Assembly (NCBI GenBank): GCA_030531695.1 | Contig: JAUNMV010000002.1 | Coordinates: 38,598-77,697, forward strand | Length of the DNA: 39,100 nt | Source: Bacilli bacterium | GTDB lineage: Bacteria > Bacillota_I > Bacilli_A > RF39 > UBA660 | Direction of reading: 5' to 3' | Shown: positions 12,220-25,907 of the stretch, piece by piece | Position numbering within the stretch: the stretch's first letter is position 1 | Layout of the letters: each line of letters opens with the position of its first letter | Position numbers and translations under genes: made by a program | Notes under the pieces: generated by a model | Database searches by the model: none | Seen by the model: only the letters and a program-made list of their open reading frames with translations | Told to the model about the DNA's origin: nothing

Positions 12220-12975
12220 ATGAAAAAGATATTAAGTAAATTCAGTGAATACTACATAATATTCGCAGTATATTGTTTAATAGGATGGCTATATGAAGTC
12301 TTTATGATGTGGGTAGTATGTCCACCATATCATTTTGTGAATAGAGGAGTATTATTAGGACCATTCCTTCCAATATATGGATTTGGTATGTTAGTACTTT
12401 TATTCTTATTAGCTAAATTTATGAGTAAGAGTCATAAAGCAAGTAATCCACTAGTATTATCAATATCTACAGTTATAATAACTACATTTATCTACATTAC
12501 TACAATAGAGTATACAACTACTCCAAAGATACTAAGAGTAGACTATTTTCTAGAACAATATGGTTTAGGTTTATTTATAATAAATGTAATTGCCTTATTA
12601 CTAATCAATATTTTATTAAAGAAAACAAAGAGTAAAGAATTAAAAAACTTAGATCTAACAATCTACTTAGTCTTCTTAGCTATTTGGATTATTACTACAT
12701 TAATAGAATATGGTACTCATTATGTAATTGATACATTTCAACATAAAATGTTATGGGATTACACAAAAGACTTCTTAAACATAAATAAAAGAGTAAATTG
12801 GGATGCCAGTAGAAACTTCGCAATAGGAGGAACATTCCTACTATATACAGTCCAACCATTACTTAATAAACTAAATAATAAGTTAAAAGATAAAACAAAA
12901 CTATTAATCACATTAATAGTAGGTATACCAATGTTATTAGATTTTATTCTACATGTAGTTCTACATATAATATAA
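12220..12975 (+). CDS. Putative ABC-transporter type IV / CmpB-like membrane protein
   Basis: The protein has 251 residues and about six membrane helices. The N-terminal signature CLIGWLYEV followed by VNRGVLLGPFLPIYGFG (around 48-64) is diagnostic of the PF06541 'putative ABC-transporter type IV' family. No ATPase gene is nearby, so transport is only inferred from the family name. The ATG at 12220 is chosen over the GTG at 12211 because AGGTGAG at 12209-12215 is its ribosome-binding site. Confidence 0.85.
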   Translation: MKKILSKFSEYYIIFAVYCLIGWLYEVFMMWVVCPPYHFVNRGVLLGPFLPIYGFGMLVLLFLLAKFMSKSHKASNPLVLSISTVIITTFIYITTIEYTTTPKILRVDYFLEQYGLGLFIINVIALLLINILLKKTKSKELKNLDLTIYLVFLAIWIITTLIEYGTHYVIDTFQHKMLWDYTKDFLNINKRVNWDASRNFAIGGTFLLYTVQPLLNKLNNKLKDKTKLLITLIVGIPMLLDFILHVVLHII

Positions 12976-13005
12976 AAAGTTTCCACAATTTCTGTGGAAA
13001 CTTTT
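12975..13005 (+). terminator. Terminator with CCACA-N5-TGTGG core
   Basis: A 13-bp perfect stem (12975-12987 with 12993-13005) with a 5-nt ATTTC loop ends in TTTT. It also faces the convergent small gene. The top of the stem, TTTCCACA/TGTGGAAA, resembles the palindromes in prmC and rpiB. Confidence 0.85.
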
Positions 13006-13282: not shown

Positions 13283-14275
13283 TTATCTTCCAGCTTGAAC
13301 AGCAGTAATAGCAATTACACCAACTACATCATCTGTACTACAACCTCTAGATAAATCATTAACAGGTTTAGCAATACCTTGACATATTGGTCCATAAGCT
13401 TCAGCTTTAGCAAGTCTTTGAACTAATTTATAACCTATATTACCAGCATCTAAGTCTGGGAATACTAATACGTTAGCATGTCCTGCAACTTTAGAATCTG
13501 GTGCCTTAGAAGCAGCTATTTCAGGTACTATAGCAGCATCTAATTGTAATTCTCCATCCATATCATATTGTGGATAATCTCTTTTAGCAATTTCAACAGC
13601 AGCAAGTACTTTATCAACATCGGCATGTTTAGCACTACCTTTAGTAGAATGTGATAAGAATGCTACCTTAGGTTCTTCTTCAACAAGTAACTTAAAGCTA
13701 TCAGCACTTGTAGCAGCAATAGCAGCTAACTTTTCAGGATCTGGATTTTGTTCAAGTCCAGCATCTCCAAAAATAAATGTACCATTAGCTCCATATTCAC
13801 AATTAGGAACAACCATTAAGAAGAATGCAGATACTAGCTTAGTATCAGGAGCAGTCTTAATAATTTGTAATGCAGGTCTAATAGTATTAGCAGAAGAGTG
13901 ACATGCTCCAGACACAACACCATCAGCTTTACCATCTTTAACTAACATACATGCATAATACATATAATCAGTTAATAATAATTCTTTTCCTTCTTCATAA
14001 GTCATACCCTTAGCTTTTCTAAGTTCTACAAACTTATTAATTAAATCCTCAGTCATATCAGAAGTTTGAGGATCAATAAACTTAATATTAGTAAAATCTA
14101 AATCACTATTATTACCTTTAACTTCTTCTGAATTACCTAAAACAATGATATTAGCAATACCTTCATCTCTTGCCTTACATGCAGCTTCCATAACACGTCT
14201 ATCCATATATTCAGGTAAGATAATTGTTTTTAAATTTTGTTTAGCTCTTTCTTTAACTCTATCAATGAAATTCAC
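13283..14275 (-). CDS. pta: Phosphate acetyltransferase
   Basis: The protein has 330 residues, the typical short Pta without an extra N-terminal domain. It has KTIILPEYMDRRV at the start, DGVVSGACHSSANTIRPALQII (around 120-140), FLSHSTKGSA (around 205-215) and the end NDLSRGCSTDDVVGVIAIT. It interconverts acetyl-CoA and acetyl phosphate, usually with an acetate kinase, for fermentation energy. The start is GTG at 14275, preceded by AAGG; lemA lies 17 bases upstream in the same operon. Confidence 0.97.
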   Translation of the reverse strand: MNFIDRVKERAKQNLKTIILPEYMDRRVMEAACKARDEGIANIIVLGNSEEVKGNNSDLDFTNIKFIDPQTSDMTEDLINKFVELRKAKGMTYEEGKELLLTDYMYYACMLVKDGKADGVVSGACHSSANTIRPALQIIKTAPDTKLVSAFFLMVVPNCEYGANGTFIFGDAGLEQNPDPEKLAAIAATSADSFKLLVEEEPKVAFLSHSTKGSAKHADVDKVLAAVEIAKRDYPQYDMDGELQLDAAIVPEIAASKAPDSKVAGHANVLVFPDLDAGNIGYKLVQRLAKAEAYGPICQGIAKPVNDLSRGCSTDDVVGVIAITAVQAGR

Positions 14276-19670: not shown

Positions 19671-20735
19671 ATGATAGAAAGATTAGAAGCTACTCTACAA
19701 AAGTATGAGTATTTACAAACTGAATTAACAAAACCGGAGATTCTATCTGATATCAAAAAGACTCGTGAATATTCAAAAGAAATGAGTGAGTTAGAAGATA
19801 TCGTAAATTGTTATAAAAGATATAAACAAGTTTTAGCAGGTATTGAAGATGCTAAAGAGATGACTAAAGATCCAGACTTAGGAGAAATGGCTAAAGAAGA
19901 ATTAAAATCTCTAGAAGAAGAAAAAACAAAGTTAGATGGAGAATTAGAAATATTACTAATTCCAAAGGATCCTAACGATGGAAAGAACGTTGTTATTGAA
20001 ATAAGAGGAGCTGCTGGTGGAGATGAAGCAAATATCTTTGCTGGAGACTTATTTAGAATGTATACAAGATATGCTGAAAAACAAGGCTTTAGTTATCAAG
20101 TATACAACTCAGTAGATGGTACTGCTGGAGGATTTAGTCAAATAGAGTTTATTATCAAAGGAAAGAATGCTTATTCTTTATTAAAATATGAATCAGGTTC
20201 ACACAGAGTACAAAGAGTACCTGTAACTGAATCAAATGGTAGATTACAAACTTCAACTGCAACAGTATTAGTAATGCCAGAAGCAGACGAAGATGTAGAT
20301 ATCGAAATCAATCCTAATGATTTAAGAATTGATATCTATAGATCAAGTGGATGTGGAGGACAAGGAGTAAATACTACAGACTCTGCAGTACGTATAACAC
20401 ATTTACCTACAGGTGTAGTAGTAACATGTCAAAATGAACGTAGCCAAATACAAAATAAAGAACAAGCTATGAAAGTATTAAAAACACGTCTATATGAACT
20501 TCAAGAACAAGAACGTTTAGAAAAAGAAGGAAACGAAAGACGTAGTAAGATTGGTACTGGAGATAGAGCAGAAAAGATACGTACATATAACTATCCACAA
20601 AATAGAGTAACTGATCATAGAATTGGATTTACTACAAATAACTTAGATAGAATTATGGATGGAGCATTAGATGATGTAATCAATGCCTTAATACAAGAAG
20701 ATCAAAGAAGAAAGTTAGTTGGAGAAACTGAATAA
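19671..20735 (+). CDS. prfA: Peptide chain release factor 1
   Basis: The protein has 354 residues. The stop-codon recognition motif P-x-T is present as PVT (in RVQRVPVTESNGR), which is the RF1 type reading UAA and UAG. The catalytic GGQ lies in SSGCGGQGVN around residue 226. The ATG at 19671 is chosen because of the AAGGGGAG site just upstream; in-frame extension towards 19629 lies within the promoter. All genes in this window stop with codons this factor reads. Its stop overlaps prmC by one base. Confidence 0.98.
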   Translation: MIERLEATLQKYEYLQTELTKPEILSDIKKTREYSKEMSELEDIVNCYKRYKQVLAGIEDAKEMTKDPDLGEMAKEELKSLEEEKTKLDGELEILLIPKDPNDGKNVVIEIRGAAGGDEANIFAGDLFRMYTRYAEKQGFSYQVYNSVDGTAGGFSQIEFIIKGKNAYSLLKYESGSHRVQRVPVTESNGRLQTSTATVLVMPEADEDVDIEINPNDLRIDIYRSSGCGGQGVNTTDSAVRITHLPTGVVVTCQNERSQIQNKEQAMKVLKTRLYELQEQERLEKEGNERRSKIGTGDRAEKIRTYNYPQNRVTDHRIGFTTNNLDRIMDGALDDVINALIQEDQRRKLVGETE

Positions 20736-21553
20736 TGACTATAGAAGAATTATTAGTCTATGGAAAAAGTAAGATACATAAAGAACATGCTAAAATACTT
20801 CTTGCAGAACTAATAAATAGAAATCCTTTAGAATTATATAATATATTATCTGAAGTAGTAGACGAAGATAAAGCAGAAATATATAAGAAAGAAGTAGATG
20901 CTGTTCAAGAAGGAAAACCTATCCAATATGTAATTGGAAATGTTAATTTCTGTGGACAAAGATTTATCATAAATGAAAATGTACTGATACCTAGATTTGA
21001 AACAGAAGAATTAGTAGAATACACAACTAAGTATGCTAAAGAGTTATTCACAGAACCTGTGGATATAATAGATTTAGGTTGTGGAAGTGGCGTAATAGGT
21101 CTATCTTTAGAAAATAAATTATCCACAAAATCTGTGGATTTAGTAGATATTTCTGAAGAAGCTTTAGAAGTAGCTAAGATAAATAGAGATAATCTTAATA
21201 GTAAAGCTAATTTAATCCACAGTGATATGTGGAAAAGTATAACTAACAAATATGATATTGTGGTAAGTAATCCACCATACATTAAAACAAATGAAGAAAT
21301 AGAAGATATTGTTAAGAATAATGAACCACATCTAGCACTTTATGCTGGAATAGATGGCTTAGATTGCTATAGAAAAATATTTGAAAGTATTAAGCCACAC
21401 TTAAAAGATAAGTTCTTAATAGGATTAGAAATAGGTTATACACAAGCTATAGATATAACGAATCTTGCAAATAATTACTTAGATAATATCAAAGTAATAG
21501 TAAAAAAAGATATGTCAGAAAAAGATAGAATGATATTTATTATGAATAAATAA
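20735..21553 (+). CDS. prmC: Release factor glutamine methyltransferase PrmC
   Basis: The protein has 272 residues. The N-terminal helical domain covers about 1-85. The SAM-binding motif IDLGCGSGVIGL (around 111) and the substrate motif SNPPYI (around 178-183) identify it. It methylates the Gln of the GGQ motif of release factors, and prfA is immediately upstream with a TAATG overlap. The reading frame contains an unusual set of DnaA-box-like palindromes (20951-21236), described separately. Confidence 0.97.
   Translation: MTIEELLVYGKSKIHKEHAKILLAELINRNPLELYNILSEVVDEDKAEIYKKEVDAVQEGKPIQYVIGNVNFCGQRFIINENVLIPRFETEELVEYTTKYAKELFTEPVDIIDLGCGSGVIGLSLENKLSTKSVDLVDISEEALEVAKINRDNLNSKANLIHSDMWKSITNKYDIVVSNPPYIKTNEEIEDIVKNNEPHLALYAGIDGLDCYRKIFESIKPHLKDKFLIGLEIGYTQAIDITNLANNYLDNIKVIVKKDMSEKDRMIFIMNK
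21044..21141. repeat. Two DnaA-box-like inverted pairs inside prmC
   Basis: Pair A: TTATTCACA (21044-21052), spacer GAACC, TGTGGATAT (21058-21066). Pair B: TTATCCACA (21119-21127), spacer AAATC, TGTGGATTT (21133-21141). Both have half-sites on opposite strands separated by exactly 5 nt. TTATCCACA and TTATTCACA both match the DnaA box TTATNCACA. Related single or looser copies lie nearby: TGTGGACAA at 20951-20959, and TAATCCACA/TGTGGAAAA at 21213-21236 with a 6-nt spacer. Confidence 0.7.
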
Positions 21554-25466: not shown

Positions 25467-25907
25467 ATGAAAATAGGTATTGCAAATGATCATAGAGGTT
25501 TTCCTCTAAAAGAATACATAAAAGCAAAACTACAAGAATTAGGTTATGAAGTAGTAGATTATGGAACAAATTCCACAGAATCTGTGGATTATCCAGATTA
25601 TGCATTTGTTTTATCCACAAATGTTGTGGATAAAAACGTTGACTACGGAGTAGCTATCTGTGGAAGTGGTATAGGTATAAGTATTGCTTGTAATAAAGTA
25701 AAAGGAATACGTTGTGCCAAAGTATCAAATGTAGAAGAAGCAAGATATACAAGAGAAGATAATGATTCTAATATAGTAGCATTTGGAGAAAAGACAGATA
25801 AAGATGAAGCAGTAGAAATAGTAAAAACATTCGTAAAAACTCCATTCACTAATTTAGAAAAACATGTACGTAGAATAAATAAGATAAAAGAGTATGAGGA
25901 AAAATAA
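25467..25907 (+). CDS. rpiB: Ribose-5-phosphate isomerase B
   Basis: The protein has 146 residues. It has the RpiB/LacAB motifs NDHRGFPLKE (8-17), SVDYPDYA (around 42), and the active-site CGSGIGISIACNK (around 67) with the catalytic Cys. It interconverts ribose-5-phosphate and ribulose-5-phosphate. The ATG at 25467 has GAGGG upstream; an in-frame ATG at 25443 overlaps the TATAAT at 25439-25444. The frame contains two DnaA-box-like palindromes. It overlaps the next gene by TAATG. Confidence 0.96.
   Translation: MKIGIANDHRGFPLKEYIKAKLQELGYEVVDYGTNSTESVDYPDYAFVLSTNVVDKNVDYGVAICGSGIGISIACNKVKGIRCAKVSNVEEARYTREDNDSNIVAFGEKTDKDEAVEIVKTFVKTPFTNLEKHVRRINKIKEYEEK
25569..25633. repeat. Two DnaA-box-like inverted pairs inside rpiB
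   Basis: Pair C: AATTCCACA (25569-25577), spacer GAATC, TGTGGATTA (25583-25591). Pair D: TTATCCACA (25611-25619), spacer AATGT, TGTGGATAA (25625-25633), a perfect dyad made of two consensus DnaA boxes. As in prmC, the half-sites are on opposite strands exactly 5 nt apart. Confidence 0.75.

Follow-up and report, generated by a model that had tools for sequence, protein, structure and literature searches.

Chromosomal sites made of DnaA boxes are already known from several bacteria. In Escherichia coli, double DnaA boxes are near-consensus pairs at a fixed short spacing that are bound by a DnaA dimer (PMC11317965), while in the DARS elements boxes I and II face each other, with a head-to-head contact of DnaA reported, and promote the release of ADP (PMC8682772). 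The inverted boxes 2 and 3 of the Thermotoga maritima oriC bind ATP-DnaA as cooperative dimers, with an optimum spacing of 4 bp and another higher-order complex at 5–6 bp (PMC10316083). Clusters of DnaA boxes outside oriC restrain initiation in Bacillus subtilis, as PMC5295017 states in reporting Okumura 2012, and the boxes of E. coli are dense around oriC and titrate DnaA (PMC12371093).

The stretch of DNA analyzed here, termed the window (39,100 nucleotides, contig C18:38598–77697 of the source genome), carries palindromic dyads that resemble each of these systems in part. They share with the E. coli double boxes the pairing at a fixed short spacing, the small number of sites per genome, and the purine that follows the box, but the E. 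coli sites are direct repeats 2–3 bp apart and mostly upstream of genes, whereas the dyads are inverted, spaced by 5 bp, and situated in coding DNA or terminators. As in the core of DARS1 and DARS2, two DnaA boxes face each other; DARS, however, exist as two loci that include a third box and, in the case of DARS2, IHF/Fis sites, whereas the dyads are many, minimal, and close to the origin, without conserved flanks. Inverted DnaA boxes are also common to T. maritima, where cooperative dimer formation depends on spacing, but there a single pair lies inside oriC and the optimum spacing is 4 bp. The B. subtilis clusters and the E. coli origin-proximal boxes also lie outside oriC, from where they restrict initiation or titrate DnaA, but they are clusters or single boxes without fixed dyad geometry, whereas the dyads have a fixed geometry and lie on one side of oriC, partly in genes. 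Finally, like parS and Noc boxes, the dyads are palindromic, origin-proximal, and also found within genes, but the parS and Noc sequences (TGTTTCACGTGAAACA or ATTTCCCGGGAAAT) differ from them in sequence and symmetry. What is new is the fixed inverted N5 geometry, the setting inside genes, and the one-sided origin-proximal spread within one clade.

Within the window, the rpiB coding sequence (25467–25907, + strand) hosts two dyads; no strand is assigned to these or to the other dyads. Dyad A (25569–25591) reads AATTCCACA-GAATC-TGTGGATTA, with an exact TCCACA-N5-TGTGGA core and the codons N-S-T-E-S-V-D-Y. Dyad B (25611–25633) reads TTATCCACA-AATGT-TGTGGATAA and consists of two perfect TTATCCACA boxes, in the codons L-S-T-N-V-V-D-K. 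A preliminary description of this DNA had located both palindromes at 25569–25633 and called dyad B perfect, as we find; the distance of 33 bp that it gave between them is actually 19 bp edge to edge and 42 bp center to center. The prmC coding sequence (20735–21553, + strand, with Pfam matches to PrmC_N and MTS) carries an exact-core dyad at 21119–21141, TTATCCACA-AAATC-TGTGGATTT, in the codons L-S-T-K-S-V-D-L, and a weaker one at 21044–21066, TTATTCACA-GAACC-TGTGGATAT. The count of four N5 pairs in the two genes therefore stands for both rpiB dyads and for prmC 21119–21141, which have the exact core, while the pair at 21044–21066 has a single mismatch. A terminator copy of the CCACA-N5-TGTGG core, also reported earlier, is present at 12979–13001, where GTTTCCACA-ATTTC-TGTGGAAAC forms the terminator hairpin directly after an ORF ending at 12975. 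Single TTATCCACA boxes had been counted as four in the window and are in fact five, the one at 13569 on the minus strand having been overlooked. The dnaA gene lies at ~25.2–26.6 kb of C18 with oriC adjoining, so that the window begins ~12 kb from the origin, and ~37.6 kb separate dnaA from the rpiB dyads.

These palindromes are real and chance is excluded as their source. Counted with up to two mismatches, CCACA-N5-TGTGG occurs 12 times in the window against 3.5 expected, and TTATCCACA with up to one mismatch 38 times against 12.5; in neither case did any shuffle reach the observed number. The 1.46-Mb source genome contains 15 exact CCACA-N5-TGTGG copies and none of the reversed control, and all 15 extend to TCCACA-N5-TGTGGA. 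An enrichment elsewhere in the genome, set beforehand as a test of the idea, is thereby met. The spacing is fixed: 15 of the 22 TCCACA/TGTGGA pairs with spacers of 0–24 bp in the source genome have a spacer of 5, as do 51 of the 61 head-to-head pairs with spacers of 0–40 bp in 80 related loci (rpiB-region loci totaling 879 kb, collected with rpiB as query). Dyads with one mismatch follow the same rule, with 75 at N5 versus 0–2 at each other spacing. In an unbiased list of inverted repeats, the dyad is the top signal of the source-genome sample, and on the origin contig of genome G018 it stands level with parS at the top. TCCACA-N6-TGTGGA variants were also seen in the source genome, at C24:9805, 16123, and 16729, two of them being the full palindrome TCCACAGATATCTGTGGA. 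An uptake-signal-like repeat was considered as well and is disfavored, the k-mer over-representation showing single TCCACA to be merely mildly enriched.

Conservation in sister species, the other test set in advance, was likewise borne out. The exact core of dyad A is present in six of six genomes of the genus and, in the comparison of rpiB codons with relatives that had been proposed, its codons TCC ACA ... GTG GAT are kept while neighboring codons vary. Dyad B is exact in the sister genome G003, where the loop reads GCAGT instead, and degraded in G001 and G002. A prmC dyad occurs at the same place in several genera (G004, G005, G018, G060, G076, G088, G089, and G111). At loci L249 and L262, the rpiB dyad sits at another codon and a second one lies 53 bp upstream in intergenic DNA; the dyad thus persists in the same place although its precise position shifts. 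Two further genes carry dyads. In a gene for an HtrA-like serine protease, within an acidic N-terminal stretch, they fall at differing codons between species and occur twice in G005; these loci (L013, L138, and L170) were assigned by Pfam in G000 and G005, the G001 gene being without annotation. In dnaN, a conserved S-T-E-T-V-D segment near the end carries a dyad that is exact in G003 and G088 and has one mismatch in G000, G018, and G373; in E. coli, ChIP places DnaA inside dnaN too (PMC11317965).

The same comparison bears on whether the dyads form a small family of dispersed palindromic repeats, as had been suggested, or a mobile, REP-like one. The copies are indeed short dispersed palindromes, but they share no flanks outside the dyad, their loops are unrelated, many are intragenic, and they hold orthologous positions across genera. 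Because flanks and loops are unrelated, and because sites stay at orthologous codons or are rebuilt elsewhere in the same gene, this explanation finds no support and we give it hardly any credence.

About 60% of the 121 sites inspected are in open frames, the remainder being terminator-like or in other intergenic DNA. The coding sites are mostly read in the frame TCC ACA NNN NNT GTG GAN, and most of them spell S-T-x-x-V-D/E; dyad A overlaps a conserved RpiB motif. Chance together with protein constraint, by which a conserved S-T-x-x-V-D motif in RpiB and PrmC would bring the palindrome along, might seem to follow, but TCC and GTG are minor codons in these genes (8% of Ser and 11% of Val, respectively) and both are retained wherever a dyad is compatible with the protein. 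Synonymous-codon shuffles of rpiB produced two dyads in 1 of 20,000 trials; for C18 they gave 0.03 dyads versus 3 observed, and for the G018 origin contig, counting dyads with up to one mismatch, 0.55 versus 10 observed. These shuffles and the terminator copies, which have no protein to constrain them, refute the explanation, and the displaced rpiB dyads of L249 and L262, each with its neighbor just upstream, also speak against it; we regard it as extremely improbable.

The intergenic copies raise another possibility, that the sites work at the RNA level, as hairpins (terminators, attenuators, or RNA-protein sites), the palindrome in the DNA being a by-product. Intrinsic terminators, with a T run after the stem, are numerous among the sites, but the copies in rpiB and prmC are followed by no such run, and terminators whose stems differ from the dyad do not recur. 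The inner bases are a purine on the left and a pyrimidine on the right, each kept independently, so that an unpaired A..C is common, and at box position 2 the terminator copies retain T although the A run predicts A there. Inner bases conserved without pairing, together with this T, favor recognition of double-stranded DNA, and the hairpin explanation appears very unlikely. We conclude that selection maintains the dyad as a DNA element of fixed spacing, both within coding sequence and in terminators.

The half-site points to DnaA. Its logo over 49 distinct coding sites, T-T-W-T-C-C-A-C-A-R, equals the DnaA box TTWTNCACA plus a following purine, giving the dyad consensus TTWTCCACAR-NNN-YTGTGGAWAA, and the boxes of the source genome's own oriC have the same form. 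In dyads with one mismatch, the position changed most often is number 5 of the box, where TTWTNCACA has its free N; none of the exact dyads of the 80 loci has a base other than C at this position in both halves. In the E. coli DnaA ChIP table, a purine follows 11 of 12 consensus-like boxes (PMC11317965; our count). Viral contigs (IMG/VR) often contain head-to-head TTATCCACA pairs at 3–6 bp, in at least 55 to more than 120 phage-like stretches, and 10 were found at N8 among the matches listed, with 0 for one scrambled control; since direct repeats are also common there and the counts are partly lower bounds, we draw no claim on spacing from them.

Among 98 family genomes sampled, three or more dyads were found only with the DnaA motif GGKDH, in 14 of 45 genomes as against 0 of 37 others. 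None of the nine family genomes with N for D in this motif has three or more, nor has any of the 16 whose DnaA motif did not match the pattern. In G024, which carries this N, the oriC boxes have G or A, not C, at position 5. A possible structural parallel is the base contact made by D433 of E. coli DnaA. Each genome examined encodes only one DnaA C-terminal domain. In the DnaA tree, all genomes with three or more dyads fall into one fully supported clade, accounting for 28 of its 34 rows; these are uncultured gut Bacilli whose relatives include Candidatus Faecimonas and Onthousia. Outside the family, genomes across the class have 0–3 dyads each, near background. As DnaA is universal but the dyads are confined to one clade, the association with the DnaA motif could reflect shared ancestry and is no more than suggestive.

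The dyads are concentrated beside the origin, mostly to one side of dnaA. Seven genomes whose origin contigs are long (G373, G375, G374, G018, G102, G089, and G002) have 46 exact dyads in sum, of which 36 are found no more than 160 kb from dnaA on the rpiB side, which carries rpmH, parAB, dnaB, prmC, and rpiB. This amounts to 36 dyads in a zone of ~1.1 Mb versus 10 in ~7.9 Mb elsewhere, a density ~25-fold higher; the figure is descriptive, because sites that are orthologous between related genomes cannot count as independent observations. In G373, where the flip of GC skew at dnaA confirms the origin, nine of ten dyads are within 156 kb on the rpiB side and one is 16 kb away on the other, with none in the remaining ~590 kb of the contig; those with up to one mismatch within 200 kb divide 13 versus 3 between the two sides of dnaA. 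The rpiB side holds seven of eight dyads within 132 kb in G375, the other being the only one in 733 kb on the opposite side, and six of nine within 150 kb in G374. The origin-proximal zone on that side has six of seven in G018 and four of five in G102. The 77.7-kb dnaA contig of the source genome, 5% of the assembly, carries 5 of its 15 dyads. With 15 genomic copies, conservation in the genus and several genera, and this strong clustering beside dnaA, the earlier suggestion of an origin-linked element is upheld.

In the dyad-poor relative G024, no replacement dyad was found in ~100 kb around dnaA, only ~40 kb of which is on the rpiB side. Another inverted repeat, GATGTA-N11-TACATC, occurs seven times in these 100 kb (C24 of G024, ~60–160 kb, L328–L332). 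The oriC regions of G018 (C6:10569, L313) and G024 (C24:120360, L331) each contain a single pair of inverted DnaA boxes separated by 4 bp, which is the spacing reported as best in T. maritima. In G373, an interleaved parS/Noc-box cluster lies ~8 kb from dnaA.

A dedicated, clade-specific dimeric DNA-binding protein other than DnaA could also read the dyads, organizing or anchoring the origin-proximal arm as parS, Noc boxes, and RacA sites do in other Bacilli, in which case the likeness to DnaA boxes would be fortuitous. Such a protein would suit the confinement to one clade, the fixed spacing with a strict C at position 5 of exact dyads, and a one-sided origin-proximal domain placed in coding DNA, which recalls segregation sites rather than regulators. 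Against it, the half-site equals the DnaA box over ten positions, among them the outer T-T-W and the purine after the box; ParB and Noc have sites of their own, true copies of which lie elsewhere, near gyrA, in the source genome; and no candidate came up, although no systematic search was made. The gyrA-side copies, four parS-like TGTTTCACGTGGAACA and two perfect Noc boxes ATTTCCCGGGAAAT, form one cluster at C18:17004–17365, outside the window. We consider this protein somewhat unlikely, but since the one-sidedness is without explanation it stays alive as the main rival.

We favor, with moderate confidence, the reading of the dyads as head-to-head pairs of DnaA boxes with a 5-bp spacer that serve as cooperative DnaA-binding sites; binding is inferred here, in the absence of binding data. 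Some observations sit uneasily with it, among them the strict C at position 5 of exact dyads, stricter than the textbook DnaA box, and the T. maritima inverted-box optimum of 4 bp, not 5 (PMC10316083). Under the DnaA reading, each dyad would be bound by a symmetric head-to-head pair of protomers. Less confidently, origin-near sites, which are doubled soon after initiation, might bind newly available DnaA or, alternatively, might alter the nucleotide it carries, in the manner of boxes I and II of the E. coli DARS; early doubling suits both titration and nucleotide switching, either of which could restrain or time initiation. The dyads meet one trait of titration sites, enrichment near the origin, and titration by them is plausible but not shown; simple titration does not predict that they should lie on one side. 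In B. subtilis, YabA, the product of yabA, restrains DnaA. The gene is missing here from what we take to be its usual place, between ricT and yabB as in the B. subtilis gene order (that place only), which may leave room for another control of DnaA.

More tentatively, and at less than even confidence, the dyads may mark a one-sided domain of ~160 kb beside oriC, read by head-to-head DnaA dimers or by an unknown partner, so that one arm would be marked for initiation control, anchoring, or segregation by signs written through codon choice. Codon choice in these bacteria is constrained by a function of the chromosome. It is still an open question how DnaA is kept in check where the control loops of E. 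coli are absent, and a minimal two-box site with a spacer of exactly 5 bp allows the geometry of DnaA dimers, and titration beyond model organisms, to be approached from sequence.
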